Positions 2,997-60,233 of a stretch of 64,000 nucleotides of DNA are shown here, one piece after another; position 1 is the stretch's first letter; the number at the start of each line of letters is the position of its first letter. This DNA comes from Terebella lapidaria (lineage: Eukaryota > Annelida > Polychaeta > Terebellida > Terebellidae). A program made the position numbers and the translations under genes. The notes beneath the pieces were generated by a model. The model did no database searches and had not been told where the DNA came from. It was given only the letters and a program-made list of their open reading frames with translations. The DNA is taken from assembly GCA_949152475.1 (NCBI GenBank), contig OX424555.1:15890868-15954867 (forward strand). Direction: 5' to 3'.

Positions 2997-3337
2997 ATTG
3001 ATTGAAAAAGCAAATCTTCCAAGAAACGACTGTCAATGTGACAAGAGAGATCAACTTGAGTAGACATGTCTGCCGAGTCTTTTATATATGACAGAAGGAA
3101 TTGCTCAACTGATTTGCTCTGTATGAACTGTTTGCACTGAGCACTGTGCGTTTTCATTAATGAAATTGCAATGATTCACTTGAGTACATCATGCCTATTG
3201 TGCTGTAGCAAACTGAGCACATTTTTTTATTTGATGTTCAATCAACAACTCCTAATTTCAATTAGGTTTATGCATGCCAGATTGGCCTTGCATTACTCAT
3301 AGAGATCAAATTTGAGCAGCTCAAGTTTTGGTGAAAC

Positions 3338-28019: not shown

Positions 28020-31000
28020 TTAGACTGGACCGCCGAAGTTGGGCCAAGTAGAGATCTCGTCGTAGAGCATTTGCCCAGGACATTCAGTCGCCATAGCGTC
28101 CCGGTGACCGTGTAGTGAATAAGTCGACACCATGTTACCCTGCAAAAAGAACCATTATGTCTCAGCTGTGTATATGGTGATTCTTGTAATCCAAAACATT
28201 GTTTAAGAATTTCTTAAATGACATTATTTATTTGAAAAAGCTCATTGCCCAACAATACTCCTCCGGCCTTTTTGGACTTTCGCTTACCAGCTGCACGGCA
28301 CAGCCGATGTGGGCCGCGAGGGCGTCCATGGCCGACTGCACGGGTAGCGAGGAGGTGAAGGTCCCGATCATACACACTCCGTAGCCGTCATCGTTCCACT
28401 CGCCAGTATGAGCGCCTAGCGTGTCCCAGCCTCGGCCTTCGTACACATTCCCGTCACCACCAATCAGAAAATTGTACCCGATGTCATTCCATCCTGTTCG
28501 GTGAAACGAGTTATACTAGAAACAGAACTGGTTAATTCAGTTACGGTTGTACATACATAATGCCTAAGCTGAATGACACGGTCTTCTATTGTCTCTTTGA
28601 GAAGGCGCATGCTGTTTTAATACTACTAGTCCATTTGCCATTCGAAGATGCTATTGGAGTACAATGCCTTTTGCTTGATTTGTCATCTCATGAATTCCCT
28701 GGAGATTTCCAATTGAATTGTTATCTGGATAAACATAATCTTAGGTTCACCATAGTCTATGGTAAACATAATTAAAGACAGCAAATGGACTATACTCGAC
28801 CACTGAAAAGCACCACTCCATCCTATCCTGTACTATTTGTTCGTTTGCCTAATATAGTAAAATGAATGTATACGTAGTTGTCGAAGGCACCAGGACACAT
28901 ACCGTTGCTGTCCATATGGTAGTCCTGAATAGATCTGACCTGGGCTGAGCACTCGCTCTGTGTGCTACAGCTTGCTCCTGCCGAGTGGTGCACGAAATAC
29001 TGTCGGGAGATGAAAAGGCGAATATTACTACCTCATCAATTAGCATGTGATTGTCTTGTACAGGGCACACCATTTCATATATGATTTCAAATCCATTTAA
29101 ATATTATTTAACCGCACATGTGGGAGGCTTGCTATCTGTTCGTGTATGTAGACCTAACATCCCTCATGTTAGTAACATCCATGAGTCATGCAGTGGTCAC
29201 TGTACACTAGAACGCATTTCTGATTTGGGACAAAGTTACCTGACTCCACGAAAATTATTAACGGATACAGACCCTAGTATTAAACGGCCATATTTCAATT
29301 ATCTCGTATACATAGGGCTGCATCTTATTGTTGGTGGGCGTTACCATGTCTACGGGTAGGTAGAGAGGGAGTTACTGGTTGGTGGACGTTACCATGTCTA
29401 CGAGTAGGTAGAGAGAGGGGTACTAGTTGGTGGGTTGGTGGACGTTACTATGCCTACGGGTAGGTAGAGAGGGAGGTACTGGTTGGTGGACGTTACCATG
29501 TCTACGGGGAGGTAGAGAGGGAGGTACTGGTTGGTGGACGTTACCATGTCTACGGGTAGGTAGAGAGGGAGGTACTGGTTGGTGGACGTTACCATGTCTA
29601 CGGGGAGGTAGAGAGGGAGGTACTGGTTGGTGGACGTTACCATGTCTATGGGTAGGTAGAGAAGGAGGTACTGGTTGGTGGACGTTACCATGTCTACGGG
29701 TAGGTAGAGAGGGAGGTATTGGTTGGTGGACGTTACCATGTCTATGGGTAGGTAGAGAAGGAGGTACTGGTTGGTGGACGTTACCATGTCTATGGGTAGG
29801 TAGAGAGGGAGGTACTGGTTGGTGGACGTTACCATGTCTACAGGGAGGTAGAGAGGGAGGTACTGGTTGGTGGACGTTACCATGTCTATGGGTAGGTAGA
29901 GAAAAAGGTACTGGTTGGTGGACGTTACCATGTCTACGGGTAGGTAGAGAGGGAGGTACTGGTTGGTGGACGTTACCATGTCTATGGGTAGGTAGAGAGG
30001 GAGGTACTGGTTGGTGGACGTTACCATGTCTACAGGGAGGTAGAGAGGGAGGTACTGGTTGGTGGACGTTACCATGTCTACGGGTAGGTAGAGAAAAAGG
30101 TACTGGTTGGTGGACGTTACCATGTCTACGGGTAGGTAGAGAGGGAGGTACTGGTTGGTGGACGTTACCTTGTCTACGGGTAGGTGGAGAGTGAAGTACC
30201 AGTTGGTGGACGTTACCATGTCTACGGGTACGTAGAGAGTGAAGTACTGGTTGGCGGATGTTACCATGTCTACGTTTAAGTAGAGAGGGAGGTACTGGTT
30301 GGCGATGTTACCATGTTTACTGGTAGGTAGAGAGGGAGGTGCTGGTTGGTGGATGTTACCATGTCTACGGGTAGGTAGAGAGGGAGGTTTTGGTTGGCGG
30401 ACGTTACCATGACTACGGGTAGGTAGAGAGGGAGGTGCTGGTTGGTGGAAGTTACCATGTCTACGAGTAGGTAGAGAGGGAGGTCTCGGTTGGCGGACGT
30501 TACCATGACTATGGGTAGGTAGAGAGGGAGGTACTAGTTGTTGGACATTACCATGTCTACGGGTAGGTAGAGAGGGAGGTTCTGGTGGGTGGACGTTACC
30601 ATGTCTACGGTTAGGTAGAGAGGGAGGTCTTGGTTGGTGGACGTTACCATGGCTATGGGTAGGTAGAGAGGGAGGTACTAGTTGTTGGACATTACCATGT
30701 CTTTGGGGAGGTAGAGAGGGAGGTGCTGGTTGGTGGATGTTGCCATGTCTACGGACAGGTAGAGAGGGAGGTCTTGGTTGACGGACGTTACCATGTCTAT
30801 GGGTAGGTAGAGAGGGAGGTACTAGTTGTTGGTCATTAGAGAGGGAGGTCTTGGTTGGCGGACATTACCTTGACTACAGGTAGGTAGAGAGGGAGGTACT
30901 AGTTGTTGGACATTACCATGTCTTTGGGGAGGTAGAGAGGGAGGTACTGGTTGGTGGACGTTACCATGTCTACGGGTAGGTAGAGAGGGAGGTCTTGGTT

Positions 31001-34000
31001 GGCGGACGTTACCATGTCTACGGGTAGGTAGAGAGGGAGGTACTAGTTGTTGGAAATTACCATGTCTACGGTTAGGTAGAGAGGGAGGTACCGGTTGGTG
31101 GACGTTACCTTGTATACGGGTAGGTAGAGAGAGAAGTACTAGTTGGTGGACGTTACCATGTCTACGGGTAGGTAGAGAGGGAGGTACTGGTTGGTGGACG
31201 TTACCATGTCTACGGGTAGGTAGAGGGAGGTACTGGTTGGTGGACGTTACCATGTCTACGGGTAGGTAGAGAGGGAGGTATTGGTTGGTGGACATTACCA
31301 TGTCTACGGGTAGGTAGAGAGGGAGGTACTGGTTGGTGGACGTTACCATGTCTACGGGTAGGTAGAGAGTGAGGTACTGGTTGGTGGACGTTACCATGTC
31401 TACGGGTAGGTAGAGAGTGAGGTACTGGTTGGCGGATGTTACCATGTCTACGGTTAGGTAGAGAGGGAGGTACTGGTTGCCGATGTTACCATGTTTACTG
31501 GCAGGTAGAGAGGGAGGTACTGGTTGGTGGACGTTACCATGTCTACGAGTAGGTAGAGAGGGAGGTAATGGTTGTTGGATATTACCATGTCTACTGGTAG
31601 GTAGAGAGAGAAGTACTGGTTGGTGGACGTGACCATGTCTACGAGTAGGTAGAGAGGAAGGTACTGATTGGTGAACGTTACCTTGTCTACGGGTAGGTAG
31701 AGAGGGAGGTACTGGTTGATGGACGTTACCATGTCTATGGGTAGGTAGAGAGGGAGGTACCAGTTGGTGGACGTTACCATGTCTACGGGTAGGTAGAGAG
31801 GGAGGTACTGGTTGATGGACGTTACCTTGTCTATGGGTAGGTAGAGAGAGAGGTACTGGTTGGTGGACGTTACCATGTCTATGGGTAGGTAGAGAGGGAG
31901 GTACTGGTTGGTGGACGTTACCATGTCTACTGGGAGGTAGAGAGGGAAGTACTGGTTGGTGGACGTTACCATGTCTACGAGTAGGTAGAGAGGGAGGTAA
32001 TGGTTGGTGGACGTTACCATGTCTACGGGGAGGTAGAGAGGGAGGTACTGGTTGGTGGACGTTACCATGTCTACGGGTAGGTAGAGAAGGAGGTACTGGT
32101 TGGTGGACGTTACCATGTCTACGGGTAGGTAGAGAGGGAGGTACTGGTTGGTGGACGTTACCTTGTCTACGGGTAGGTAGAGAGTGAGGTACTGGTTGGT
32201 GGACGTTACCATGTCTACGGGTACATAGAGAGTGAGGTACTGGTTGTCGGATGTTACCATGTCTACGGTTAGGTAGAGAGGGAGGTACTGGTTGGCGATG
32301 TTACCATGTCTACGGGTAGGTAGAGAGGGAGGTTTTGGTTGGCGAACGTTACCATGACTACGGGTAGGTAGAGAGAGAAGTACTGGTTGGTGGACGTGAC
32401 CATGTCTACGAGTAGGTAGAGAGGAAGGTACTGATTGGTGAACGTTACCTTGTCTACGGGTAGGTAGAGAGGGAGGTACTGGTTGGTGGACGTTACCATG
32501 TCTACGGGTAGGTAGAGAGGGAGGTACCAGTTGGTGGACGTTACCATATCTACGGGTAGGTAGAGAGGGAGGTACTGGTTGATGGACGTTACCTTGTCTA
32601 TGGGTAGGTAGAGAGAGAGGTACTGGTTGGTGGACGTTACCATGTCTATGGGTAGGTAGAGAGGGAGGTACTGGTTGGTGGACGTTACCATGTCTACTGG
32701 GAGGTAGAGAGGGAAGTACTGGTTGGTGGACGTTACCATGTCTACGAGTAGGTAGAGAGGGAGGTAATGGTTGGTGGACGTTACCATGTCTACGGGGAGG
32801 TAGAGAGGGAGGTACTGGTTGGTGGACGTTACCATGTCTACGGGTAGGTAGAGAAGGAGGTACTGGTTGGTGGACGTTACCATGTCTACGGGTAGGTAGA
32901 GAGGGAGGTACTGGTTGGTGGACGTTACCTTGTCTACGGGTAGGTAGAGAGTGAGGTACTGGTTGGTGGACGTTACCATGTCTACGGGTACATAGAGAGT
33001 GAGGTACTGGTTGTCGGATGTTACCATGTCTACGGTTAGGTAGAGAGGGAGGTACTGGTTGGCGATGTTACCATGTCTACGGGTAGGTAGAGAGGGAGGT
33101 TTTGGTTGGCGAACGTTACCATGACTACGGGTAGGTAGAGAGGGAGGTGCTGGTTGGTGGATGTTACCATGTCTACGAGTATGTAGAGAGGGAGGTCTTG
33201 GTTGGTGGACCTTACCATGACTATGGGTAGGTAGAGAGGGAGGTACTAGTTGTTGGACATTACCATGTCTACGGGTAGGTAGAGAGGGAGGTTCTGGTGG
33301 GTGGACGTTACCATGTCTACGGGTACGTAGAGGGAGGTAATGGTCAGGGTACGTTACCATGTCTACGGTTAGGTAGAGAGGGAGGTCTTGGTTGGTGGAA
33401 GTTACCATGGCTACGGGTAGGTAGAGAGGGAAGTACTAGTTGTTGGACATTAAAGAGGGAGGTCTTGGTTGGCGAACGTTACCATGACTACGGGTAGGTA
33501 GAGAGGGAGGTGCTGGTTGGTGGATGTTACCATGTCTACGGACAGGTAGAGGGAAGGTCTTGGTTGGCGGACGTTACCATGTCTACTGGTAGGTAGAGAG
33601 GGAGGTACTAGTTGTTGGACATTAAAGAGGGAGGTCTTGGTTGGCGGACATTACCATGTCTTTCGGGAGGTAGAGAGGGAGGTGCTGGTTGGTGGATGTT
33701 ACCATGTCTACGGGTAGGTAGAGAGGGAGGTACTGGTTGGTGGACGTTACCTTATCTACGGGTAGGTAGAGAGAGAAGTACTGGTTGGTGGACGTTACCA
33801 TGTCTAGGGGTAGGTAGACAGGGAGGTACTAGTTGTTGGACATTACCATGTCTACTGGTAGGTAGAAAGAGAAGTACTGGTTGGTGGACGTTACCATGTC
33901 CACGGGTAGGTAGAGAGGGAGGTACTGGTTAGTGGATGTTACCATGTCTATGGGTAGATAGAGAGGGAGGTACTGGTTGGTGGACATTACCATGTCTACG

Positions 34001-37000
34001 GGTAGGTAGAGAGGGAGGTACTGGTTGGTGGACATTACCATGTCTACGGGTAGGTAGAGAGGGAGGTACTGGTTGGTGAACGTTACGATGTCTACGGGTA
34101 GGTAGAGAGGGAGATACTGGTTGGTGGACGTTACCATGTCTATGGGTAGGTAGAGAGTGAGGTACTGGTTGGTGGACGTTACCATGTCCACGGGTAGGTA
34201 GAGAGGGAGATACTGGTTGGTGGACGTTACCATGTCTGCTGGTAGGTAGAGAGGGAGGTACTGGTTGGTGGACGTTACCATGTCTACGGGTAGATAGAGA
34301 GGGAGGTACTGGCTGGTGGACGTTACCATGTCTACGGGTAGGTAGAGAGTGAGGTACTGGTTGGTGGACGTTACCATGTCCACGCGTAGGTAGAGAGGGA
34401 GATACTGGTTGGTGGACGTTACCATGTCTGCTGGTAGGTAGAGAGGGAGATACTGGTTGGTGGACGTTACCATGTCTGCTGGTAGGTAGAGAGGGAGGTA
34501 CTGCTTGTTGGATGTTACCATGTCTACTGGTAGGTAAGGAGAGAAGTACTGGTTGGTGGACGTTACCATGTCTATGGGTAGGTAGAGAGGGAGGTACCAA
34601 GTGGTGGACGTTACCATGTCTACGGGTAGATAGAGAGTGAGGTACTGGTTGGTGGACGTTACCATGTCTATGGGTAGGTAGAGAGAGAGGTACTGGTTGG
34701 TGGACTTTACCATGTCTACGGGTAGGTAGAGAGTGAGGTACTGGTTGTTGGACGTTACCATGTCTACGAGGAGGTAGAGAGCGAGGTACTGGTTGGTGGA
34801 CGTTACCATGTCTACGTGTAGGTAGAGAGGGAGGTACTGGTTGGTGGACGTTACCATGTCTACGGGGAGGTAGAGAGGGAGGTACTGGTTGGTGGACGTT
34901 ACCATGTCTACGGGTAGGTAGAGAAGGAGGTACTGGTTGGTGGACGTTACCATGTCTACGGGTAGGTAGAGAGGGAGGTACTGGTTGGTGGACGTTACCA
35001 TGTCTACGGGTAGGTAGAGAGGGAGGTACTGGTTGGTGGACGTTACCATGTCTATGGGTAGGTAGAGAAGGAGGTACTGGTTGGTGGACGTTACCATGTC
35101 TACGGGGAGGTAGAGAGGGAGGTACTGGTTGGTGGACGTTACCATGTCTACGGGTAGGTAGAGAGGGAGGTACTGGTTGGTGGACGTTACCATGTCTACG
35201 GGGAGGTAGAGAGGGAGGTACTGGTTGGTGGACGTTACCATGTCTACGGGTAGGTAGAGAAGGAGGTACTGGTTGGTGGACGTTACCATGTCTACGGGTA
35301 GGTAGAGAGGGAGGTACTGGTTGGTGGACGTTACCATGTCTACGGGTAGGTAGGGAGGGAGGTACTGGTTGGTGGACGTTACCATGTCTATGGGTAGGTA
35401 GAGAAGGAGGTACTGGTTGGTGGACGTTACCATGTCTACGGGTAGGTAGAGAGTGAGGTACTGGTTGGTGGACGTTACCATGTCTACGAGGAGGTAGAGA
35501 GGGAGGTACTGGTTGGTGGACGTTACCTTGTCTATGGGTAGGTAGAGAGTGAAGTACCAGTTGGTGGACGTTACCATGTCTACGGGTAGATAGAGAGTGA
35601 GGTACTGGTTGGTGGACGTTACCATGTCTACGGGTAGGTAGAGAGGGAGGTACTGGTTGGTGCACGTTACCATATCTACTGGTAGGTAGAGAGGGAGGTA
35701 CCGGTTGGTGCACGTTACCATGTCTACGGGTAGGTAGAGAGAGAGGTACTGGTTGGTGGACGTTACCGTGTCTATGGGTAGGTAGAGAGGGAGGTACTGG
35801 TTGGTGGACGTTACCGTGTCTATGGGTAGGTAGAGAGGGAGGTACTGGTTGTTGGACGTTACAATGTCTACTGGTAGGTAGAGAGGGAGGTACTGGTTGG
35901 TGGACGTTACAATGTCTACGGGTAGGTAGAGAGGGAGGTACTGGTTGGTGGACGTTATCATGTCTATGGGTAGGTAGAGAGGGAGGTACTGGTTGGTGGA
36001 CATTACCATGTCTACGGGTAGGTAGAGAGGGAGGTACTGGTTGGTGGACGTTACCATGTCTACGGGTAGGTAGAGAGGGAGGTACTGGTTGGTGGACGTT
36101 ACCATGTCTACGAGTAGGTAGAGAGGGAGGTACTGGTTGGTGGACATTACCATGTCTATGGGTAGGTAGAGAGGGAGGTACTGGTTGGTGGACGTTACCA
36201 TGTCTACGAGTAGGTTATAGAGGGAGGTACTGGTTGGTGGACGTTACCATGTCTACGGGTAGGTAGAGAGGGAGGTACTGGTTGGTGGACGTTACCATGT
36301 CTATGGGTAGGTAGAGAGTGAGGTACTGGTTGGTGGACGTTACCATGTCTACGGGTAGGTAGAGAGGGAGGTACTGGTTGGTGGACGTTACCATGTCTAC
36401 CGGTAGGTAGAGAGGGAGGTACTGGTTGGTGGAATTTACCATGTCTACGGGTAGGTAGAGAAGGAGGTACTGGTTGGTGGACGTTACAATGTCTACGGGT
36501 AGGTAGAGAGGGAGGTACTGGTTGGTGGACGTTACCATGTCTATGGGTAGGTAGAGAGGGAGGTACTGGTTGGTGGCATTGCCATGTCTACGGGTAGGTA
36601 GAGAGTGAGGTACTGGTTGGTGGACGTTACCATATCTACGGGTAGGTAGAGAGTGAGGTACTGGTTGGTGGACGTTACCATATCTACGGGTAGGTAGAGA
36701 GTGAGGTACTGGTTGGTGGACGTTACCATGTCTACGGGTAGGTAGAGAGTGAGGTACTGGTTGGTGGACGTTACCATGTCTACGGGTGGGTAGAGAGTGA
36801 GGTACTGGCTGGTGGACATTACCATGTCTACGAGTAGGTAGAGACTGAGGTACTGGTTGGTGGACGTTACCATGTCTACGGGTAGGTAGAGACTGAGGTA
36901 CTGGTTGGCGGAAGTTACCATGTCTACGAGTTGGTAGAGAGGGAGGTACTGGTTGGTGGACGTTACCATGTCTACGGGTAGGTAGAGAGGGAGGTACTGG

Positions 37001-40000
37001 TTGGTGGACGTTACCATGTCTACGGGTAGGTAGAGAGTGAGGTACTGGTTGGTGGACGTTACCATGTCTACGGGTAGGTAGAGAGGGAGGTACTGGTTGG
37101 TGGACGTTACCATGTCTACGGGTAGTTAGAGAGGGAGGTACTGGTTGGTGGACGTTACCATGTCTATGGGTAGGTAGAGAGGGAAGTACTGGTTGGTGGC
37201 ATTACCATGTCTACGGGTAGGTAGAGAGTGAGGTACTGGTTGGTGGACGTTACCATGTGTACGGGTAGGTAGGGAGTGAGGTACTGGTTGGTGGACGTTA
37301 CCATGTCTATGGGTAGGTAGAGAGTGAGGTACTGGTTAGTGGACGTTACCATGTCTACGGGTGGGTAGAGAGTGAGGTACTGGTTGGTGGACGTTACCAT
37401 GTCTACGGGTAGGTAGAGACTGAGGTACTGGTTGGTGGACGTTACCATGTCTATGGGTAGGTAGAGACTGAGGTACTGGTTGGCGGAAGTTACCATGTCT
37501 ACGAGTAGGTAGAGAGGGAGGTACTGGTTGGTGGACGTTACCATGTCTACGGGTAGGTAGAGAGGGAGGTACTGGTTGGTGGACGTTACCATGTCTACGG
37601 GAAGGTAGAGACTGAGGTACTGGTTGGCGGAAGTTACCATGTCTACGAGTAGGTAGAGAGGGAGGTACTGGTTGGTGGACGTTACCATGTCTATGGGTAG
37701 GTAGAGAGGGAGGTACTGGTTGGTGAACGTTACCATGTCTGTGGGTAGGTAGAGAGGGAGGTACTGTTTGGTGGACGTTACCATGTCTACGGGTAGGTAG
37801 AGAGGGAGGTACTGGTTGGTGGACGTTACCATGTCTATGGGTAGGAAGAGAGGGAGGTACTGGTTGGTGGACGTTACCATGTCTATGGGTAGGTAGAGAG
37901 GGAGGTACTGGTTGGTGGACGTTACCATGTCTACGGGTAGGTAGAGAGGGAGGTACTGGTTGGTGGACATTACCATGTCTATGGGTAGGTAGAGAGGGAG
38001 CTACTGGTTGGTACACACGTTACCATGTCTACGGGTAGGTAGAGAGGGAGGTACTGGTTGTTGGACGTTACCGTGTCTACTGGTAGGTAGAGAGGGGAAG
38101 TACTGGTTGGTGGACGTTACCATGTCTATGGGTAGGTAGCGAGGGAGGTACTGGTTGGTGGACGTTACCATGTCTACGGGTAGGTAGAGAGGGAGGTACT
38201 GGTTGTTGGACGTTACCTTGTCTACGGGTAGGTAGAGAAGGAGGTACTGGTTGGTGGACGTTACCATGTCTACGGGTAGGTAGAGAGAGAGGTACTGGTT
38301 GGTGGACGTTACCTTGTCTACGAGTAGGTAGAGAGAGAGGTACTGGTTGGTGGACGTTACCATGTCTACGGGTAGGTAGAGAGGGAGGTACTGGTTGTTG
38401 GACGTTACCTTGTCTACGGGTAGGTAGAGAAGGAGGTACTGGTTGGTACAAACGTTACCATGTCTACGGGTAGATAGAGAGGGAGGTACTGGTTGGTGGA
38501 CGTTACCATGTCTATGGGTAGGTAGAGAGGGGGGTACGGGTTGGTGGACGTTACCATGTCTACGGGTAGGTAGAGAGGGAGGTACTGGTTGTTGGACGTT
38601 ACCCTGTCTACGGGTAGGTAGAGAGGGAGGTACTGGTTGGTGGACGTTACCATATCTACTGGTAGGTAGAGAGGGAGGTACTGGTTGGTGGACATTACCA
38701 TGTCTACGGGTATGTAGAGAGGGAGGTACTGGTTGGTGGATGTTACCGTCTCTACGGGTAGGTAGAGAGAGGAGGTACTGGTTGGTGGACATTACCATGT
38801 CTACGGGTATGTAGAGAGGGAGGTACTGGTTGGTGGATGTTACCGTCTCTACGGGTAGGTAGAGAGAGGAGGTACTGGTTGGTGGACGTTACCATGTCTA
38901 CTGGTAGGTAGAGATGGAGGTACCGGTTGGTGGACGTTACCTTGTCTACGGGTAGGAAGAGAGGGAGGTACTGGTTGGTGGACGTTACCATGTCTACGGG
39001 TAGGAAGAGAGGGAGGTACTGGTTGGTGGACGTTACCATGTCTACGGGTAGGAAGAGAGGGAGGTACTGGTTGGTGGACGTTACCATGTCTATGGGTAGG
39101 TAGAGAGGGAGGTACTGGTTGGTGGACGTTACCATGTCTACGAGTAGGTATAGAGGGAGGTACTGGTTGGTGGATGTTACCTTGTTTACGGGTAGATAGA
39201 GAGGGAGGTACTGGTTGGTGGATGTTACCTTGTTTACGGGTAGGTAGAGAGGGAAGTACTGGTTGGTGGACGTTACCATGTCTACGGGTAGATATAGAAG
39301 GAGGTACTGGTTGGTGGATGTTACCATGTCTACGGGTAGGTAGAGAGGGAGGTACTGGTTGGTGGACGTTACCATGTCTACGGGTAGGTAGAGAGGGAAG
39401 TACTGAATGGTGGACGTTACCATGTCTACGGGTAGATAGAGAGGGAGGTATTGGTTGGTAGACGTTACCATGTCTACGGGTAGGTAGAGAAGGAAGTACT
39501 GGTTGGTGGACGTTACCATGTCTACGGGTAGATAGAGAGGGAGGTACTGGTTGGTGGACGTTACCATGTCTACGGGTAGATATAGAAGGAGGTACTGGTT
39601 GGTGGATGTTACCATGTCTACGGGTAGGTAGAGAGGGAGGTACTGGTTGGTGGACGTTACCATGTCTACGGGTAGGTAGAGAGGGAAGTACTGAATGGTG
39701 GACGTTACCATGTCTACGGGTAGATAGAGAGGGAGGTACTGGTTGGTAGACGTTACCATGTCTATGGGTAGGTAGAGAAGGAAGTACTGGTTGGTGGACG
39801 TTACCATGTCTACGGGTAGATAGAGAGGGAGGTACTGGTTGGTGGACGTTACCATGTCTACGGGTAGGTAGAGGGGGAAGTACTGAATGGTGGACGTTAC
39901 CATGTCTACGGGTAGATAGAGAGAGAGGTACTGGTTGGTAGACGTTACCATGTCTACGGGTAGGTAGAGAGGGAAGTACTGGTTGGTGGACGTTACCATG

Positions 40001-41594
40001 TCTACGGGTAGGTAGAGAGGGAGGTACTGGTTGGTGGACGTTACCATGTCTATGGGTAGGTAGAGAGGGAGGTACTGGTTGGTGGACGTTACCATGTCTA
40101 CGGGTAGGTAGAGAGGGAAGTACTGGTTGGTGGACGTTACCATGTCTACGGGTAGGTAGAGAGGGAGGTGCTGGTTGGTGGACGTTACCATGACTACGGG
40201 TAGGTAGAGAGGGAGGTGCTGGTTGGTGGACGTTACCATGTCTACGGGTAGGAAGAGAGAGAGGTACTGGTTTCGTGGACGTTACCATGTCTATGGGTAG
40301 GTAGAGAGGGAGGTTCTGGTTGCTGGACGTTACCATGTCTATGGGTAGGTAGAGAGGGAGGTACTGGTTGGTGGACGTTACCATGTCTATGGGTAGGTAG
40401 AGAGGGAGGTACTGGTTGGTGGACGTTACAATGTCTATGGGTAGGTAGAGAGGGAAGTACTGGTTGGTGGACGTTACAATGTCTATGGGTAGGTAGAGAG
40501 GGAGGTACTGGTTGGTGGACGTTACCATGTCTACGAGTAGGTAGAGAGGGAGGTACTGGCTGGTACAAACGTTACCATGTCTACGGGTAGGTAGATGGAG
40601 ATACTGTTCGGGATATGTTACCATGTCTACGGGTAGGTAGAGAGGGAGGTACTGGCTGGTACAAACGTTACCATGTCTACGGGTAGGTAGATGGAGATAC
40701 TGTTCGGGATATGTTACCATGTCTACGGGTAGGTAGAGAGGGAGGTACTGGCTGGTACAAACGTTACCATGTCTACGGGTAGGTAGAGAGGGCTGGTACT
40801 GGTTGGTGGACGGGCTCCCCACTCGGCCCTCGATATGATGTTGATATTATCACAGTCTGCGGAAGAAATTTGATCTTCAATATTTTTTCTGCGTTTTGAG
40901 ATCCAAGTCTCAAACAATGTTTTGGAGAAGTTTCAATTGACTTGCTGCGTGTACAATTGGTTGCTCACTTCCGTCCGGGACTTCACAGTCGCTAGCGGGA
41001 GACGATACCAGGTAGTCACTGGCTGACCATCCGTTCTGTGCACGATATAACATATGACTGTAGTCTCTAAACGATAACTCGCAACTGGGAATCTCAAGCA
41101 CCTTTCCAAGCAAGCACCATGCGGCTGTTCGTTACGGGCGGTGCCGCTATAGATACATACAGAGCTAGTGTACTCGAACTCCCAATAGTCATAATTGGTG
41201 CCGCTCAGATCACAGTTGACAGCGCCACCTGTGGCCGTGAAACAGGCTCCCGTGTTGGCAGAACCTATCACATTGCCGCATCCTGCAAATAAGTACGAGC
41301 TTCGATGGTCCAGTTCGATTTTAGCAACAGAATACGAACTCTTTGAATGTCTCTATATCAATCAATATGTATAATATGCCTGAACAAAGTTACAACAACG
41401 TCCATAATGTGTGGCAAGAATTGTCAAAGAATACCAGGGATATGGCCCAAAGTATTAGCATTTGTTTTGATTTGGGTTTGACCTGCATCTCTGATGTTGA
41501 CGCTGTCATCCGAGAAGCAGAGACAGTCCCCGGCTGAAGGCTGAGCCCGTGCCACAGACAACAGGGCCAGAACTCCGAGTAGTGTGTACAGCAT
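28020..41594 (-). CDS. Secreted SH3b + PGRP amidase-type protein, gene 1 (7 exons)
   Basis: Exons (minus strand): 41,594-41,483, 41,282-41,161, 41,035-40,969, 40,856-40,768, 28,999-28,903, 28,493-28,288 and 28,139-28,020. They have GT-AG borders and give 813 nt, 270 aa. A signal peptide ([17 protein letters not shown]) is followed by an SH3b-like domain at about 20-98 ([31 protein letters not shown]), then a PGRP/amidase-2 domain at about 103-270 ([53 protein letters not shown]). The zinc ligands and catalytic residues of T7-lysozyme-type amidases are all present: H134, Y169, H243, T249, C251. Such proteins bind bacterial peptidoglycan and may cleave the MurNAc-L-Ala amide outside the cell; SH3b domains often bind cell walls. 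A second ATG lies 18 nt upstream (41,612), but the signal peptide fits 41,594. Intron 4 is 11.8 kb, almost all minisatellite. The paralogue lies upstream at 56,349-60,233. Confidence 0.9.
29331..40815. repeat. Minisatellite, about 240 x 48 bp, in intron 4 of PGRP gene 1
   Basis: Tandem units of 48 bp fill the intron and run into exon 4. Read on the gene strand, a unit is the last 38 nt of an exon-4-like sequence ending GTAGACATG, then the donor GTAACG and four more intron bases. The exon end at 40,768 is therefore simply the first unit. Because 48 is a multiple of three, open frames of up to 790 codons appear on both strands (repeating MVTSTNQYLPLYLPVD on minus). They do not connect to exon 4 in frame, since a stop appears in the second unit. 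The units nearest the exon are the most divergent. Confidence 0.95.
31441..33050. repeat. Higher-order duplication inside the 48-bp array
   Basis: A block of about 770 bp (16 units) with the same order of variant units occurs twice in a row, about 31,441-32,270 and 32,250-33,050. Variant words such as GGTTGTCGGATGTTACC recur at 32,232 and 33,003. This shows block duplication by unequal exchange or slippage on top of the single-unit repeat. Confidence 0.7.
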
Positions 41595-44600: not shown

Positions 44601-45365
44601 CAAATCAAATACAATATTAAAGGGTTTTCAAATAGTTCTGTGCAAACATTTTCGAAGCTCTTCCTTTGAGGCCAGTGGCCCTTGTTCTCATTCGTGTCTC
44701 GGGTTTTCATTGTAACCAACATATAGTTCCACCGACCAGGAACTCAAAAAGCTAATGCAAGATGACAAAATTACATTTTCCGAACTTCCTCTGAGCTTTT
44801 GCTCAAGCTATTGTTTTTGTTTTCTCCCTTTTCATGCTCATTGTACAGCACAAAAACTTTTAATGGACCACTTTGTCCATACAGCACATGTTACTTTCTC
44901 TTAAAGACAGGCGGGTGATCGTTTGCGAATGTCGCATTCACGAAATCATTAAGCTTCTCAAAAGCTTCTCAATTATGACCATTAGGGACCGTTCGCGAAA
45001 ATAAATCGTAAAGATAAGTAGCCCATGTTCATATTACTCTGTCCCGTGACCTTATACCGGGACCTATTGTCCTGGCACAACCAAGCGTCATATATCAGGG
45101 TTATTGATAACGAGTCTATATCATAACGAGAATATTACCACCTGGTGTATCCATACCACTTAGCATTTTTGACCTGTTTATATACACACATGTATTTGCT
45201 GTTCCCAGTGTATCATCTTGTGAATTGACACACTTCACCTGTCAATCAAACGGCAATTTCCCACCAAGTTTTAGACCTTTAATACCCCCAAAGTTGACTT
45301 CCCGGCTAACATGGGCTCTCACGAATCTGAGAAAACTCGTAAAATTTAGTGCAATGCTTTGATAT
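41613..45365. other. Intergenic region upstream of PGRP gene 1; no gene seen
   Basis: The promoter of gene 1 must lie at the low end. A weak TATA-like CTAAATA lies on the minus strand near 41,680. At about 43,880, 44,010 and 44,540 three degenerate copies of a repeat (CAACAAGGTA, TTCTG, CCACAATAAAAATA) are seen. A lysine-rich open frame at 43,635-43,910 has no resemblance to any family and is probably chance. Confidence 0.45.
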
Positions 45366-46260
45366 TGTGACGTTTGGTAATGACTTGTTTTCGGTGTGGC
45401 CCAAAAAACCTGGTTTCTCTGATCGTATAGACTTTATGTAACTCCCGCTCGTTGTGATTCGAGAGCCGTCACTAAATTGGTGTCCCCCAACGCTGGTGTA
45501 TCATCACTCCGTAGCTTACCGGCTTCACTTAGGCAAGAAGCAACTCAGATGTAAATAAATTGAAGATTTATATACATCAAATCAACTTACAATTGTATGG
45601 CTGGTCACCCACGTGACGTACAAATATGAAGTTCAGACATGGAGCACTGTACGATCACATTTCAAAAATAAATAGTGCACGAGGGCACAACTAAAAAGAG
45701 TTCTTAGCCGGCGGCGTCTCTCTGTCCCTTCCCGTTGAAGTTTCCCGTCCCGTTTAGTCGAATGGTTTCTCCAGGTAGTCGGTCTAATCCCGGTTGACTC
45801 TAAGGCCCTGAAGAAGGAGTCGTCCGCACGGAGTTCGTCGAGTCCCTTGGCTGTGGCGGTGACGATCTCCCCACGGTCGATGTCGCTGTTGCAGTGCTCT
45901 CAGAGCGGCCGTCCGCTCTCCCTTATATAGCCAGGGTGGCTGCGCGCGCATCTTCGTCCGCGAACGTATCTTCCGCACTCTTCTCCACGTGGTGAAGACT
46001 GCGTCCGCGAACGGTTCTTCCGCGAAGGCTCCTCTTCCGCGAACGGTGCTTCCGCGACTGATGCTTCCGCTGACGATGCTTCCGCAATCGTGCTTCCGCG
46101 AACGGTTCTTCCGCGAACGATGCTTCCGCTGATGATGCTTCCGCAATCGTGCTTCCGCGAACGGTTCTTCCGCGAACGGTGTCTTCGCAAGTGGACTTTG
46201 TAGATCACGTGACCGTTCCTAACGAACGTTTCAGCGCGGCAGTTGCATGGTTTTGTTACA
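45366..46260 (-). repeat. 3' LTR of the Gypsy element
   Basis: 895 bp, starting TGT and ending ACA on either strand, matching 55,301-56,195. It contains a cluster of about 15 copies of the word TTCCGCGAACG or close variants (45,955-46,195). Confidence 0.95.
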
Positions 46261-46380
46261 ACTCCACCCTTTCTGGAGATCAACGTCCCCGTTGATCCTT
46301 TCTCTCTCTTCTTTTCTCTTCTTCCTCCTTCTTCGTCTTTTCCTGCCTGTCTGTTGTTTACAGGGCTCTCTCCCTCCACT

Positions 46381-47478: not shown

Positions 47479-50400
47479 GGTTGAAGTGATGACGGAATCG
47501 TAGGCCGGCCTGCTTATATAGAAAAGGCGCGGACCAGGGATCTGGGGGAAAAAGCATTGTCGTGGAACGAAATAACGTTTTTCGCTTGCTTCCGCGAACG
47601 GTTCTTCCGCGAACGCTGCTTCCGCGAATGTGCTTCCGCGAACGGTACTTCCGCGAACGCTGCTTCCGCGAACGGTTCTTCCGCGAACGCTCCCGTCGTC
47701 GTTTACATCGTTTGGACTGCATTCCCGCCGTTTTCCACTCGTCCCTCGTCATCACTGGGGGTCCGGACTGGGGTCACATCGTCCGGATTGGGTATCCAGG
47801 CGTCGGTTTCAGGGGTAAACCAGCACCTTTTTATATTGTCAATGTGGACATCTTTAATCTTGCCACCGGGTCGATCTTGTATGGACACCATCCATCCGAG
47901 ATGAGACTTCACAACGAGATAAGGTCCCGTCCACCCTAGTCCTAGTTTTGGTCTAGCCTTTGGAGGGTACCAATACATCACCCAGGTGCCCACCGGAAAA
48001 TGTCGAGCGGCTGATTTTACGTCATGATGGCGCTTTTGTCGCACCGTAGCCGTCTTCAGGCACTCTCGGGCAGTCTCGTGAGCTTGTATGGTGGCTTCCT
48101 TCACCCATTCGACGTATTCGGACGCACACTCGGGGACTGGTCCTCCCAAATCGTCCGGTTTTGTCCGGTACCTCAGGTCCAATGGGGTGGTTGCCTCCCG
48201 TCCCATCATCATTCGAAATGGTGTACACCCGGTGCTTTCGTGTACTGATGTTCTATAAGTCGCCATCACGTAGGGCAGATGGTCGTCCCAGTCGTCATGG
48301 TTCTCGTCCACGACCACGGCCAGAAGGTTCAGCAGGGTCCGGTTGAATCGCTCGACCATCCCGTCTGATTTGGCGTGATAAGGGGTCGTCCGAGTCTTCT
48401 CCCCTCCTAGGATCTTGATCATCTCAAGGAAAAGCTTACTCTCGAACTCTCGTCCCTGGTCGGTGTGTATCTTGGCTGGCATTCCCAGGCGGCACACGAA
48501 CTCAGTCACAAAGACGTCCGCCACCGTCTGAGCCTCATGGTTGGGTAGAGCGTAGGCCTCAGTCCACTTGGTGAAATAATCACCCACGACCAGTATATAC
48601 CGGTTCCCAGAATTGGTGATCGTTCCAGGCTCCAAAATGTCCATGGCCACCCTTTCTAGCCGATCGCCTACCGGTAGATTTCCCATGGGGTGGTACTTGG
48701 GCCCCGGTCGCGGCTTTCTCCCACTACACTTCAGGCACTCCCGGCACCAACGCTCCACGTCCTTCGTCATACCCGGCCAGTACATTCTCGCTTTTAGTCG
48801 GTGGACTGTTTTGGTGACTCCCTGGTGGCTCATCAGCTTGCCGGTGTGGACCTCCTTCATGACGGCGCGTCTCAGGACCTGTGGAACGACCAGTTGATGG
48901 ATTGGTGCGTTCTGGCAAGCCGCTTGGTACCGCCGGTACAGAAGCCCATCACGTAGCTCCAGCTGGTCCCACTGTTGCCACAGAGTCTTCATTTGCTGAC
49001 TTTTTGTTCTGACTTCGGGCCATGCAGGTCTCTCAGTGAAAATATTCTTCCACCCGAGGATGCCTCCAACTTCAGGGTCGGCTCGTTGAAGGGTCACTAG
49101 GTCCTCCTGGGAATAACCATTCAGGACCTGGGCCTCCGGGGCTCCCTCCATCGGATTCCGGCGTCCTCTCGTAGCCATAGCCCGCGTGACAGCTAGCATT
49201 TGTTTGTCTGGATCTCGGATCACAGGGTTGGGGCATGGGTCCAGGAAGGGCTCCTCTCGGCAGCGCATCCACACGTCGGCCGTCGCACCGATCGCTGCTC
49301 CGGCCACAACCTCCGGTCCCAAACCATGCAGTGCGAGGAGCATCATCAGGAGAAACCAAACCCAGGCAGAGGGGCGGAGCTGATGCAGGGTTCTGCAGAC
49401 GCTCCTGGCTCCTTCCTCCGTCTGTGGGGGGCTCCGGTCAGGCAGGCATTCCTCGGTCGGCTGGGTAGTCGTCCTCGGGTCCTCCTGGCAGCGCACCTCC
49501 CAGATCTGGAATATCCCGACTCCATCTCCGCAATAGTAGTCCTCCGTCCAGGGCTCCACAGGGACCTCCCGCAAGATGTTAACTTGAGGTCCTCCGGGGC
49601 TCCATCCTTCTCCGCTGATCGGTGGAAGCAGATCCTCGTCAGAGAGGTCCTCCAGGGGTAGGGGACACTCCTCCTGAGTCGGACAGGCCTCCTCTTCTCC
49701 TTCGGGTCTTGTGGTGTGGCGAGGGGCGGGACAATCCGGTCTCCGGCACTGTCGGCATCTGGACATCCCGTCTGCATTCCCGTGTTGTACTCCCGGTCGG
49801 ACCTCACACCTGAAGGCGTAGCTGGCGATGCGAGCTGCCCATCTAGCGATCATTCCTTCCGCATCCCGAAAGTTCAGTAGCCACTTGAGAGAGGCGTGGT
49901 CGGTTCGTAGTAAGAACGCTCTCCCCCACAAGAAATGTCTGAAATGGTGTATCATACTGACGACGGCCAGGAGCTCCCGCTTGGTGGTGCAGTAATTCCG
50001 CTGGGTGTCCCTCAGGGTTCTGGAAGCATAGGCGATCACCCGCTCTCGTCCGTCCTGCACTTGGGATAAGACGCCTCCCACTCCGTAGCCGCTAGCATCA
50101 GTATCTAAAATAAATTCTTGGTCCATGTCAGGGTACACCAGCAGGGGGTGCTCGGTCAGGGGTTGACGCAGCGCCTCGAACGCCTGCTGATGAGCCTCGC
50201 TCCAATGGTAGTTGACTTCCTTCTTTAACAGGTGGTTGAGGGGTCCCGCTCGGGTGGCAAAGTCAGGGATGAATCTGCGGTAGTACCCCACGAACCCAAG
50301 GAAGCTCCTTAGTTCTGTCAAGGTGGTCGGAGGAACCATTTTCGTACAGCTTCGACCTTGGCAGGGTCGCACTGGATGCCTCGGTCGGACACGACATGGC

Positions 50401-53400: not shown

Positions 53401-55300
53401 TCCCAAGGTCGCCTTGTAGGACTCCTCCTGACAGTCAGGGTCGAATCGTAGGGTCAGCTTGTCGGTCAGAACGTCGATGTCCCTCCGGTCTGCAGGACTC
53501 AGGCTGGTCAGCATTCGTCGCGCCTCTCCTGTCAAGCTCCCGGCTAAGTAGACGCCCTGTTCCCGCTTGCTCCATCCGTTGACCTCTGCGATGACGTCAA
53601 AGTGGGCCCGGTACACCGGCCACTCTATGGAAGTCCCATCGAACTTGTCAGGGGTCAGCATCTTCCGGTTCCTTCTGCCGTTCTGATTCCAGGCTGTGCT
53701 GTCCTCGGACGACGAGTCCTCCTGCCTCCGTCTCGGCCTAGGGCTTCGTCGGTGCAGCGGCGGTCCCCGCCTCGGTGGTCTCCTCCCCCGTCCTGGGTAA
53801 CCATGGCTGCTGTCGGTCCCTCCATCAGATGAAGGCCCCTCATCGCCCGATGATGAGAAAGGGTGCTGTCTCCGGCCTCCCTGGGTGACTGAAATAGAAG
53901 CTGGATTTCTCCAGGAGGCTGGCTGTCTCGGTTGTCGACTGGGTGAAGACCTCTCTCTTCCGCGAACGCTGTCTTCCGCGAACCCTTCGCGAGCACTGTC
54001 TTCCGCGAACCTTCCGCGAACGGACTCCTCCGCCAACAGCTCCCGAAGAAGTTCTTCCGCGAACAGGCCTCCTCCGCGAACGCCGTCTTCCGCGAGTCTT
54101 CCGCGAACGGGCTCGTCCGCCAAGATGTCTCGGAGACGTCCCTCCACAAAAGATGCACGTCCGCGAACGCCATCTTCCACGAGTCTTCCGCGAACCGGCT
54201 CATCCGCGAATGGTCTTCCCCGTCTACTCTGAAAAACTGGAAAGGAAGATTGGTCGCCTGGATCACTCCTTTCGTCGAGCCGCCGTCTGGGTGAAGACTC
54301 CTCTCTTCCGCGAACACTCTCTTCTGCGAGTCGTCCTCGTCCGCGAACGTGGTCGTCCGCGAAGGGCCCTCCCCGGTCACAAGCGTCCTCGTCACCAAAG
54401 ACTCCCCCTCGCCCACGAGCCCGTTCATCCACGAAGGATCCCCGGCTGCAAGCGTCCCTGTCGCCGAAGAATGCCTCTCGTCCGCGAATGTTCTCTTCCG
54501 CGAAAAGTCCTCTCCCTCTCGAGCTGCTCTCTTGGGTCGGAGCCCAAGTAACCCGTCCTCCAGTCACTCCCGTTTGTCGACTCGTCACACCAGACCGCTG
54601 CCCTGTTGCACCAGACTGCTGCTGGGACTGGTCCCAAAGCCGTCTCAATGCTGCATTCTCTGGAGGTGCCACACTTGGACTCTGCTCCGGTAGCTGTAGC
54701 CGATCCCTCCTCGCCCAGATTTCGCCGTCCTCCCCGTCCAGATTGACGTACTCCGGTCCCAGCACTCGTCGGAACTCGGGGCCCCTCCTAACGCTCTCAA
54801 GGTAGGTTGACCTCTCCCTGTCTCGATCGTGCTGCCACCCAGAGTCGTGTCTGAAAAGAAAACGGTTGTCGGGTGTCTGGCTCCGGGGTCTCTGTTGACT
54901 AGTCGACTGGCCCATGGAAGGTCTCGACCTCCCTGGTTGCTCCTCACTCGTCGAAACGTCCCGTCTACCCCTGGCTGTGAAGCTGCTCTTCCGCGAACGG
55001 TCGTCTTCCGCGAACGTTGTCTTCCGCGAACGGTCGTCGGCCTCTTCCGCCAAGGTCGTCTTCTGCGAACGGTGGTCGTCCGCGAACGTCTTCCGCGAAC
55101 GGTCGTCTTCCTCTTCCGCAAAGGTTGGCTTCCGCGAACCGCTGTCTTCCTCGTCCGCAAGGGATGGCCGTCCGCGAAGAGTCTTCCTCTTCACCTCCTG
55201 TCTTCCCTGGGGCAGTTTCGTCGTTTTCGCCGGACATGAGTGATGCTGAGGTTCGTTCCCTGGCAGTAGACCCTCGGGGATCCTGGTCACGGCACCAAGT

Positions 55301-56195
55301 TGTGACGTTTGGTAATGACTTGTTTTCGGTGTGGCCCAAAAAACCTGGTTTCTCTGATCGTATAGACTTTATGTAACTCCCGCTCGTTGTGATTCGAGAG
55401 CCGTCACTAAATTGGTGTCCCCCAACGCTGGTGTATCATCACTCCGTAGCTTACCGGCTTCACTTAGGCAAGAAGCAACTCAGATGTAAATAAATTGAAG
55501 ATTTATATACATCAAATCAACTTACAATTGTATGGCTGGTCACCCACGTGACGTACAAATATGAAGTTCAGACATGGAGCACTGTACGATCACATTTCAA
55601 AAATAAATAGTGCACGAGGGCACAACTAAAAAGAGTTCTTAGCCGGCGGCGTCTCTCTGTCCCTTCCCGTTGAAGTTTCCCGTCCCGTTTAGTCGAATGG
55701 TTTCTCCAGGTAGTCGGTCTAATCCCGGTTGACTCTAAGGCCCTGAAGAAGGAGTCGTCCGCACGGAGTTCGTCGAGTCCCTTGGCTGTGGCGGTGACGA
55801 TCTCCCCACGGTCGATGTCGCTGTTGCAGTGCTCTCAGAGCGGCCGTCCGCTCTCCCTTATATAGCCAGGGTGGCTGCGCGCGCATCTTCGTCCGCGAAC
55901 GTATCTTCCGCACTCTTCTCCACGTGGTGAAGACTGCGTCCGCGAACGGTTCTTCCGCGAAGGCTCCTCTTCCGCGAACGGTGCTTCCGCGACTGATGCT
56001 TCCGCTGACGATGCTTCCGCAATCGTGCTTCCGCGAACGGTTCTTCCGCGAACGATGCTTCCGCTGATGATGCTTCCGCAATCGTGCTTCCGCGAACGGT
56101 TCTTCCGCGAACGGTGTCTTCGCAAGTGGACTTTGTAGATCACGTGACCGTTCCTAACGAACGTTTCAGCGCGGCAGTTGCATGGTTTTGTTACA
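55301..56195 (-). repeat. 5' LTR of the Gypsy element
   Basis: Identical in length to the 3' LTR. It carries a TATA box (CTATATAAGG on the minus strand, 55,856-55,865) followed by a GC-rich start region, so this copy would drive transcription of the element. Just inside it (about 55,282-55,299) TTGGTGCCGTGACCAGG is a candidate primer-binding site; I could not assign the tRNA. Confidence 0.95.
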
Positions 56196-56307
56196 ATATC
56201 AATAATGAATAAATATGTCAGACTGGAATAAACCCTTGTATATCCACTCAGTGGCGCGCCATGGTGGAAGAAGAAGACGTAGAAGATGTAATCGATTGCA
56301 CATTATT

Positions 56308-56348: not shown

Positions 56349-59300
56349 CTACAGTGGCCCGCCAAAGTTTGGCCAGGTGGAGATCTCGTTGTACAGGGCA
56401 TCGCCCGGGCAGTCGGTGGCCGTACCGTCTCGGTGCCCATGCAGTGTGTAGGACGAGACAATGTTACCCTGCAAAACGAACAAAAAATGTCATCGCATCT
56501 ACAGTAATTCTAGTTAGGCGTTCTTGGTGAAGGTTCATATTGTCATGCAATGATTTTCCTCAAAACGTTACTGTTGACTGGTTGATGTTAAAGCGCCGTA
56601 CCAATTGCACGGCACAGCCGATGTGGGCCGAGAGTGTGTCCATGGCCGCCTGGACGGGTAGAGAGGTCATGAAGCTCCCGATCATGCACACTCCGTAAGC
56701 ATCATTGTTCCACTCGCCAGCGTGTGCGCCTTGGTTATCCCAGCCTCGACCTTCGTACACATTCCCGTCCCCGCCGATCAGGAAGTTATACCCGATGTCG
56801 CTCCAGCCTAGGGGGGGGGGGGGGATGGAGGGGGGACAGTTTGCAACAACGGACATGGTGAGCGGCAGGTGGTCGACCTTCCTCAAACACGTAGTGTATT
56901 TAGATCATTTGAGGACGGATCTATCACCATCATTATATGCTGACTTGTTCTCACGATGCTGGCTTGGACTCATTACATAAATTGAGTACTGATTTAGTAG
57001 GTTTGTATGCTGATTCAGTCACGTGTACATTAGAAACAACTATATTTTTACACACTGTCTGGCCCTGATGACCCCAGTATGGGCTTGACTGTAAATATTT
57101 GGTCGGGCATTGTTTTTATTCCAGAAATGTGCCTTTTAGTTTTGCATTTGTCATCATCAAAGACATATTGGTGGCAATAGATTGATACCTGTATGTGTGT
57201 GTTTTCAAATTACAGTGGCTACACACACCGTTGCTGTCCATGTGGTAGTCTTGGATACCTCTGACCACGGACTCACACTCGGCCTGGGTGCTGCAGCTTG
57301 CTCCCTCCGAGTGGTGTACGAAATACTGGTAATGTGAAAAGCGTCACATGAACGTACACGGCAGGTGTATGGGCATTAGTATACATATTACACAATCATA
57401 TTATCGAACCTATACGTCCCCCGAGTATGCGATCCACTGCTAACAGAAGTCGAATGGAACATAACGTGAGGTTGTTGCACCAAGTACTGGTCCTATATCG
57501 GAGCTGGGTCTCACTACACATGCAATATGTTGCAGTCCAAACTTTAGACTTTAAACCAGAAAGTCTTGTCGATATTTCAGCACGATTTGTGATATCTGTA
57601 AAATGTTACCTTAGCTAAGGGTAAGTTAAGAGATGTGGTACTAGTTTGCGCAGGATACCACTGGTTGGGGCGTTACCATGCCGAGGGGTAGGCTAAGAGG
57701 GGTGGTACTAGGATGTTACCATGCCGAGGGGTAGGCTAAGAGGGGTGGTACTAGGATGTTACCATGTCGAGGGGTAGGCTATCAGGGGTGGTACTAGGAT
57801 GTTACCATGCGATGCGGTAGGCTAAGACTCGTGGTACTAGGATGTTACCATGCCTAAGGATAGGCTAAGAGGGGTTGTACTAGGATGTTACCATGCTGAG
57901 GGGTAGGCTAAGAGGGGTGGTACTAGGATGTTACCATGTCGAACGGTAGGCTAAGAGAGGTGGTAATAGGATGTTACCATGCCGAGGGGTAGGCTATGAG
58001 GGGTGGTACTAGGATGTTACCATGCTGAGGGGTAGGCTAAGAGGGGTGGTACTAGGATGTTACCATGTCGGGGGGTAGGCTAAGAGGGGTGGTACTAGGA
58101 TGTTACCATGCCTATGGATAGGCTAAGAGGGGTTGTACTAGGATGTTACCATGCCGAAAGGTAAGCTAAAAGGGGTGGTACGAGGATGTTACCATGCCGA
58201 GGGGTAGGCTAAGAGGGGTGGTACTAGGATGTTACCATGCCGAGGGGTAGGCTAAGAGGGGTGGTACTAGGATGTTACCATGCCGAGGGGTAGGCTAAGA
58301 GGGGTGGTACTAGGATGTTACCATGCCGAGGGGTAGGCTAAGAGGGGTGGTACTAGGATGTTACCATGCCGAGGGGTAGGCTAAGAGGGGTGGTACTAGG
58401 ATGTTACCATGCCGAGGGGTAGGCTAAGAGGAGTGGTACTAGGATGTTACCATGCCGAGGGGTAGGCTATGGGGGGGGGGGGGGGGTGGTACTAGGATGT
58501 TACCATGCCGAGGGGTAGGCTAAGAGGGGTGGTACTAGGATGTTACCATGCCGAGGGGTAGGCTAAGAGGGGTGGTACTAGGATGTTACCATGCCGAGGG
58601 GTAGGCTAAGAGGGGTGGTACTAGGATGTTACCATGCCGAGGGGTAGGCTAAGAGGGGTGGTACTAGGATGTTACCATGCCGAGGGGTAGGCTAAGAGGG
58701 GTGGTACTAGGATGTTACCATGCCGAGGGGTAGGCTAAGAGGAGTGGTACTAGGATGTTACCATGCCGAGGGGTAGGCTAAGAGGGGTGGTTACCATGCC
58801 GAGGGGTAGGCTAAGAGGGGTGGTTACCATGCCTATGGGTAGGCTAAGAGGGGTGGTACTAGGATGTTACCATGCCGAGGGGTATCCTAAGAGGGGTGGT
58901 TACCATGCCGAGGGGTAGGCCAAGAGGGTGATACTAGGATGTTACCATGCCAAGGGGTAGGCTAACAGGGGTGGTACTAGGATGTTACCATGCCGAGGGT
59001 TAGGCTAAGAGGGGTGGTACTAGGATATTACCATGCCGAGGGGTAGGCTAAGAGGGGTGGTACTAGGATGTTACCATGCCGAGGGGTAGGCTAAGAGGGG
59101 TGGTACTGGTCGGCGGACGAGCTCCCCACTCGGCCCTCGATACGATGTTGATGTCTCCACAGTCTGTGAACAATCGATCATATCATTTCATGTCAGCAAC
59201 AAATACAATAAATTTTAATTTGTGTCAATACAGCTTTTGGTTCGCGGTAATTTAGCGACGTTCATGTACTAGTAGTACAAATACACAGGACTAAAAATAC

Positions 59301-60233
59301 ATATTTGAGGCACACTATTGAAATTTCTGCTCACTTCCATCCGGGACCTCACAGTTGCTGGCCGGAGATGAGACCAGGTAATCGTTGGCCGCCCATCCAG
59401 TCTGCGTGTGAAATAGATACGGTGTTAGCGGTTTCATCAAAGACCCTCCAACAGAGGGTCTTTGGTTTCATGATCTACGTAGGCCTATTATTATATATTG
59501 GCATTAGACATTTTTCCAACAAATGCTCAAAGGCGCAAGATATATCGATATACACATGAATATTGCCGATACGTACAGAGCCGATGTAATCGAACTCCCA
59601 ATAGTCATAATTGGTGCCGCTCAGATCACAGTTGACAGCGCCACCTGTGGCCGTGAAACAGGCTCCCGAGCTGGCAGAACCTATCACATTGCCACATCCT
59701 GCAAACAAGTACGAGCTTTGATGGGGTATTAGGTAAACATTAACCTTGTGGTGCAATACAAATTAGTCAAAATTTTGTAGGGTTGGTAGGATTTGCAGTC
59801 GGGCATTACCGCCCTTCGGAGCGCTGGTCTAAACCATGATGTTAGATTCAGTGGTTGGGATGAAAAAAAAAAATCGTTAATTGATGACACCATAAAACTA
59901 ACAAAAACCTGCTCTCAAATATCCTTGCTGTTATGGTTCACTATGATTATCCATTTTCATCGTGCCCGATACTGCTCGTTAAAATATTTGTGATATTATA
60001 TCATTATGTACAAGGCCATAATCAAATTCCATACCCCAAAAAAATGCTAAATATGATAATAATAATAATTCATATCTCATGATAATTCATTAATTATGAC
60101 CAGATCATTAAGGGTTTTGACCTGAATCTCTGATGTTGACGCTGCTCCCGGAGATACAGAGGCAGTCTCCGGCTGAAGGCTGAGCCCGCGCCACGGACAA
60201 CAGGGCCACAACTCCGAGTAGTGTGTACAGCAT
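56349..60233 (-). CDS. Secreted SH3b + PGRP amidase-type protein, gene 2 (7 exons)
   Basis: Exons (minus strand): 60,233-60,122, 59,698-59,577, 59,401-59,335, 59,163-59,075, 57,325-57,229, 56,807-56,602 and 56,468-56,349. Every exon has exactly the length of its counterpart in gene 1 and the total is again 813 nt, 270 aa. A signal peptide ([17 protein letters not shown]) is followed by an SH3b-like domain and a PGRP domain with H134, Y169, H243, T249 and C251 intact ([33 protein letters not shown]). Differences from gene 1 are scattered: for example exon 4 ends LSLPLGM, not LYLPVDM. The acceptor of exon 6 follows a run of 14 C. Intron 4 is 1.75 kb and mostly a 43-bp minisatellite. A tandem duplication of one ancestral gene explains the pair. 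The same innate-immune role as gene 1 is expected. Confidence 0.9.
57650..59115. repeat. Minisatellite, about 34 x 43 bp, in intron 4 of PGRP gene 2
   Basis: On the gene strand a unit is the last 33 nt of exon 4 (ending CCCCTCGGCATG), the donor GTAACA and four more intron bases (TCCT). The first unit is the exon end itself (59,075). The unit is not a multiple of three, and a TAG lies 10 nt into the intron, so no long frame forms. One unit carries a 17-G run (about 58,470-58,487), and several near 58,790-58,930 are shortened. Confidence 0.95.

Follow-up and report, generated by a model that had tools for sequence, protein, structure and literature searches.

Minisatellites resembling amphioxus "mirages" at exon–intron borders of PGRP genes in the annelid Terebella lapidaria

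Intron 4 of a PGRP gene of Terebella lapidaria, here g1, opens at its very first base with an 11.4-kb tandem array in which the tail of the preceding exon and the start of its own 5′ splice site are repeated about 240 times, and the same border carries a shorter array of like structure in the tandem paralogue g2. The reading that we consider likely is that of a mirage-type minisatellite, which would have originated by tandem duplication before the separation of g1 and g2, would be tolerated as a passenger and would leave the first donor in use.

Assignment of both genes to the family is given by PF01510 (PGRP / Amidase_2) scores of 69.5 bits for g1 and 63.7 bits for g2 at a family cut-off of 26, and both are intact and follow a matching seven-exon layout on the minus strand of the window, i.e., of the whole analysed stretch of 64,000 nucleotides. 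The coding span of g1 (28020..41594, 270 aa) is composed of exons 41594-41483, 41282-41161, 41035-40969, 40856-40768, 28999-28903, 28493-28288, and 28139-28020, and that of g2 (56349..60233, also 270 aa) of exons 60233-60122, 59698-59577, 59401-59335, 59163-59075, 57325-57229, 56807-56602, and 56468-56349. By eye the N-terminal part of the two proteins is SH3b-like; Pfam gives PF01510 alone for both, and PF08239 is additionally present in two abalone relatives among the matches listed (120 of 1231). Exon 4 comprises 89 nt in g1 (40768..40856, minus strand, terminal ATG|GTAACG) as well as in g2 (59075..59163, minus strand, terminal ATG|GTAACA), the donor ATG|GTAAC being common to the pair. The end of g1 exon 4 at 40768, from which the preliminary description had proceeded, is borne out by three solved PGRPs (4z8i, 4zxm, and 2f2l), which align with the spliced protein gap-free over the exon 4/5 junction, by the same exon 4/5 spacing in full-length relatives (e.g., PVPRYFVHHSAG in P0016), and by the border shared between the paralogues. 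Exon 5 (28903..28999, minus strand, acceptor CCCGACAG) starts with TAT TTC GTG CAC CAC, and the gap-free structural alignments likewise uphold the claim that the PGRP fold runs on in phase into this exon, which encodes YFVHHSAG.

The g1 array (29330..40767, minus strand, delimited by TRF and cyclic alignment) begins at the base directly after exon 4. By cyclic alignment, 29338-40767 resolves into 240 units, 211 of them exactly 48 nt long and the final one only 7 nt, while TRF reports a single array at 29330-40812 with a period of 48 and 238.2 copies, in agreement with the earlier estimate of about 240. Each unit reproduces the terminal 45 nt of exon 4, altered by a single deletion and a single substitution, and adds GTAA, so that 44 of 48 bases are exonic; where array units read TCCC, the exon itself has AGCCC. 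This exonic seed (40768..40812, minus strand) is identical to the array consensus at 43 of 45 positions, and the array does start from a real exon end with its 5′ splice site, as had been proposed. The preliminary description was correct in its 48-bp unit containing the donor but not in dividing it into 38 nt of exon, the donor GTAACG and four intron bases: only GTAA is intronic, and the CG and four bases formerly read as intron are exonic as well (CGTCCACCAACCAGTACC, matching at 18 of 18 positions). Besides the nearly complete exonic nature of the unit, it had overlooked the paralogue of like structure in the same window and the published "mirages" discussed below. Comparison of exon 4 with its own intron revealed a 23/23 match for the last 23 nt, the best of 20 block shuffles reaching 17, whereas the first 33 nt found a best match of 16, with shuffles attaining 20 and hence no excess. 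Because the tail surpasses the shuffles while the beginning of the same exon does not, the match is not a matter of chance. GT is kept in 234 of the 240 cyclically aligned units and ATG|GTAA in 201, and the 9-mer ATGGTAACG occurs 158 times, the authentic donor counted in.

The units of the g1 array proximal to the exon are less typical, with identities to the consensus of 0.94, 0.79, 0.94, 0.79, and 0.92, and 159 distinct sequences are present among 239 units. Inside the array, 300-nt windows separated by a lag of 767 bp are up to 100% identical; recent internal duplications at this lag, seen in one assembly, are compatible with array turnover. Inflation of the array by the assembler, or its misjoining to the exon, appears very improbable: assemblers do struggle with tandem arrays of such length, and the window does hold stretches of 1588 bp and 897 bp repeated at 100% identity, but a like anatomy is found at three separate loci with different units, and two thirds of the g1 units, as counted above, differ from one another in sequence.

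In g2 the array (57672..59074, minus strand) is composed of 34 units, the final one partial, with a 43-bp period combining the exon tail with GTAACATCC(T); GT is retained in 31 of 34, and the intron repeats the final 33 nt of exon 4 without any alteration. Units adjoining the exon are undiverged here (1.00, 0.95, 0.95, and 0.93). The coding exons of g1 and g2 are 73-94% identical, and their introns barely align beyond brief matches, one of which covers the final 26 nt of intron 1. Eight sites distinguish the two exon tails. At all six that could be scored, two near an indel being left unscored, the g1 array carries the base of its own exon, and the g2 array does so at seven of eight; the remaining site falls beyond the copied segment and has neither base. 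Such correspondence would be produced if an array older than the g1/g2 separation had been homogenised in step with the exon tail of each gene, and equally by descent if the two arrays had been gained after the separation at the same splice site. The latter, independent seeding, is possible rather than probable. It is favoured by the likeness of either array to the exon it adjoins, by unit breakpoints differing between g1 (-45/+4) and g2 (-33/+9 or +10), and by the recurrence of seeding within this gene family in the paralogue gB. Against it stand the distal edges. GTAACGC occurs once in each intron 4, at 29338..29344 (minus strand) in g1 and from 57676 in g2, that is, at the distal edge in both cases and nowhere else in either intron, and CAAC is likewise common to the two edges. 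The g2 edge (57610..57681, minus strand) consists of a g1-like GTAACGCCCCAACCAGT and a decayed older unit (57644-57610) unlike the homogenised ones, and two strikes at one donor are less likely than one. Given the shared GTAACGC and CAAC and the deviation of the decayed g2 unit, a single array older than the separation, later homogenised in each gene with the exon tail of that gene, is the probable history, although the common edge amounts to one substitution and a few bases of sequence. Homogenisation in the interior with exclusion of the edges, a feature described for mirages, is seen in the diverged first units of g1 and in the decayed distal unit of g2. Recent exchange between g1 exon 4 and the bulk of its array is not indicated, the exon-adjacent units being diverged.

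As to the origin of the unit, a tandem duplication reaching from 45 nt before the end of exon 4 to the fourth base of intron 4 would generate a copy with an identical donor, which slippage or unequal exchange may then have multiplied into the intron, leaving the array as a tolerated passenger and by-product of tandem duplication. Exon definition and the order of transcription favour the first donor of a short exon. In g1 and g2 the first donor would be used as the one closing a short exon, with the acceptor 89 nt upstream, and as the one transcribed earliest. Estimated U1 pairing of the authentic 9-mer is -5.0 kcal/mol, equal in most units, and 14 decoys of the form AAGGTAACG have a stronger estimate of -6.5 kcal/mol; with decoys equal or superior in estimated pairing, strength cannot select the first donor and position must decide. 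Beyond the first donor and ahead of the second, an in-frame stop is met after 42 nt in g1 and 9 nt in g2, on which ground splicing from a later array donor would be expected to give a truncated message. With some 200 near-identical donors in a single intron, of which only the first appears to be used, the locus is a natural setting in which to ask whether strength, or rather position and exon length, guides the spliceosome to its donor.

A precedent for the use of repeated donors is human IFI6 (6-16, G1P3), in which a minisatellite is reported to supply several splice donors and two downstream units are used as donors and give isoforms (PMC4526556). That array donors in the annelid genes similarly add peptide repeats to the protein is hardly credible. 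The g1 unit length of 48 nt is divisible by three, and in some frames the array stays open over long distances, but neither 43 bp nor 71 bp is so divisible, translation in the exon frame runs into 110 stops across the array region, and the stops preceding donor 2 in both g1 and g2 would, as predicted from sequence alone, preclude coding isoforms of the IFI6 type. Open frames of up to 804 aa in the g1 array are what is expected of a 48-bp unit that is stop-free in the given frame. A coding array was rejected, the reading frame of exon 4 hitting a stop inside the first unit, and recursive splicing by way of the pyrimidine-rich stretch and TAG present in every unit was abandoned as it would insert 5-nt exons.

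The donor core itself varies little. Among all 48 four-base windows of the g1 unit GTAA is the least variable, with five substitutions over 239 units × 4 sites, and comparison with composition-matched sites gave P values of 0.012 to 0.039, which are too small inasmuch as the units share ancestry; in the short g2 array P is about 0.2 and lends no support. The low variation of GTAA hints at a constraint not expected of a pure passenger. Maintenance of the units as U1-binding decoys in a long intron, for instance holding U1 on the transcript, would account for GTAA being lowest in variation, yet such a function seems improbable: the P values are weak and blind to common ancestry, donor positions +5 and +6 show no restraint on variation, the array of g2 is both short and uninformative, and gA and most introns have no array of this kind.

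Intron 4 is present in two of the six PGRP genes found in the genome, while gA, gB, C12, and C7 read through this position; the intron after HMDSNG is common to g1, g2, gA, and gB. In a tree that included 19 relatives from among the matches listed, g1 and g2 form one clade (97/98) and gA and gB another (90/98), C12 and C7 falling far outside. Absence of the intron from four of six genes together with this grouping makes a gain in the g1/g2 ancestor the shorter story, one step against at least two for loss. It may be asked whether intron 4 was born with the mirage in that ancestor, as proposed for amphioxus globin introns. We hold this to be unlikely: the intron does open with the array, but its acceptor and last 330-350 nt bear no sign of array origin and cannot be aligned between g1 and g2. 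More doubtful still is the extended version, in which the intron is mirage-born, the coding end of exon 4 acts as "unit 0", and array and protein segment evolve in concert with the array rewriting the exon end.

Border arrays are not confined to one exon of the family. In the paralogue gB (contig C9) a 71-bp array starts one exon further on, at the donor ...GACAGAG|GTATGG, with 36.5 copies by TRF and 33 occurrences of GAGGTATGG. A second gB array (C9 5891688-5892474; 49 bp, 16 copies) opens with the closing 35 nt of the coding sequence, stop codon included; the border on which it sits is a coding one that has no splice donor. Its neighbour gA has an array of neither the 71-bp nor the 49-bp type. 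For g1 and g2, a self-repeat downstream was found at 2 of 14 exon 3′ ends, both being exon 4, and at none of 14 exon 5′ ends. The same procedure, which recovers the three known cases as positive control, detected no downstream self-repeat at 60 exon ends of trypsin and P450 genes of this genome, and a genome-wide habit was set aside on this result. The sample comprised 40 of 157 trypsin and 20 of 115 P450 matches, hand-picked for ends inside the domain; the point at which the profile match stops served as the exon end, with donors not individually checked, about 900 nt downstream were scanned (locus L050 having 849 bases), and several ends come from one gene or cluster. Thirty kinase loci (L017-L046), mostly long single-exon matches or on ciliate-like contigs, were left out. 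Sixteen donors represent the PGRP family, six each from g1 and g2 and two each (exons 5 and 6) from gA and gB, upstream exons of the latter pair being outside the count and their exon 6 donors judged from TRF and sequence only. Family against sample stands at 3/16 versus 0/60 (P 0.008), at 2/15 versus 0/60 (P 0.04) if g1 and g2 are counted once, and at 1/4 versus 0/60 (P 0.06) if both are omitted as the prompts of the search. Border arrays seem to cluster in this PGRP family, the statistics being modest.

The closest known counterparts are the "mirage" minisatellites of amphioxus, described for Adh3, the globins BflGb6 and BflGb9, and troponin C, with PGBD5 likened to them, and characterized by length instability together with apparently normal splicing (PMC3087553; PMC3902484); they were proposed to be creators of introns in amphioxus (PMC3087553). 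To judge from these descriptions, the likeness consists in exon-intron borders that are repeated in tandem, splice signals included, within the intron and in edges that escape homogenisation, and units spanning such a border together with a splice signal are found in g1, g2, and gB alike. The differences are the annelid host, the same border being affected in two diverged paralogues and other borders in gB, and the scale, the reported BflGb6 haplotypes having six and three units versus 240 in g1. On this comparison we regard the arrays of g1, g2, and gB as mirage-type arrays in another phylum, with a copy number in g1 far above the globin cases covered, and g1 and g2, along with the read-through genes gA and gB, make the proposed creation of introns by mirages testable. 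Whereas IFI6 uses its repeat donors for isoforms, later array donors of g1 and g2 would run into stops. Minisatellites in intron 1 of earthworm metallothionein genes, present in tandem gene copies with a mean monomer of about 180 bp (PMC12783039), are similar in being intronic and in an annelid gene but differ in that copies of a splice border are not described in the portion of that report available. Within the literature covered, outside which lie most subscription papers, splice-border arrays were found for amphioxus only and donor-carrying repeats for human IFI6.

Several further features of the window and the genome deserve mention. On the protein tree the branch of g1, the gene with the longer array, is 0.28 versus 0 for g2, and that of gB, which has arrays, is 0.46 versus 0.07 for gA. 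Positions 45365-46261 and 55300-56196 of the window are identical over 897 bp (100%), one copy lying just downstream of g2, which reflects either a recent duplication or an assembly effect; a tandem duplication of 1588 bp, also at 100% identity, occupies 677-2264 and 2264-3851. A minisatellite of the CTTCCGCGAACGG type is scattered at 46000-46186, 47587-47689, 53956-54207, 54987-55192, and 55935-56121 of the window, and palindromic arrays of the CTCATACGTATGAGATA type are located at 60484-60779, just upstream of g2, and at C9 5908639-5909189, about 16 kb from gB. The mitochondrial COX1 (L087) is closest to that of Pilargis wolfi (88%) and of other Phyllodocida, which marks the host as an annelid rather than a lancelet. 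Many small contigs from C21 upwards (e.g., C363, C235, and C255) encode kinases with in-frame TAA/TAG, and C417 holds a second, divergent COX1; these small kinase contigs and C417 have the look of DNA from a ciliate that inhabits the worm or its surface.
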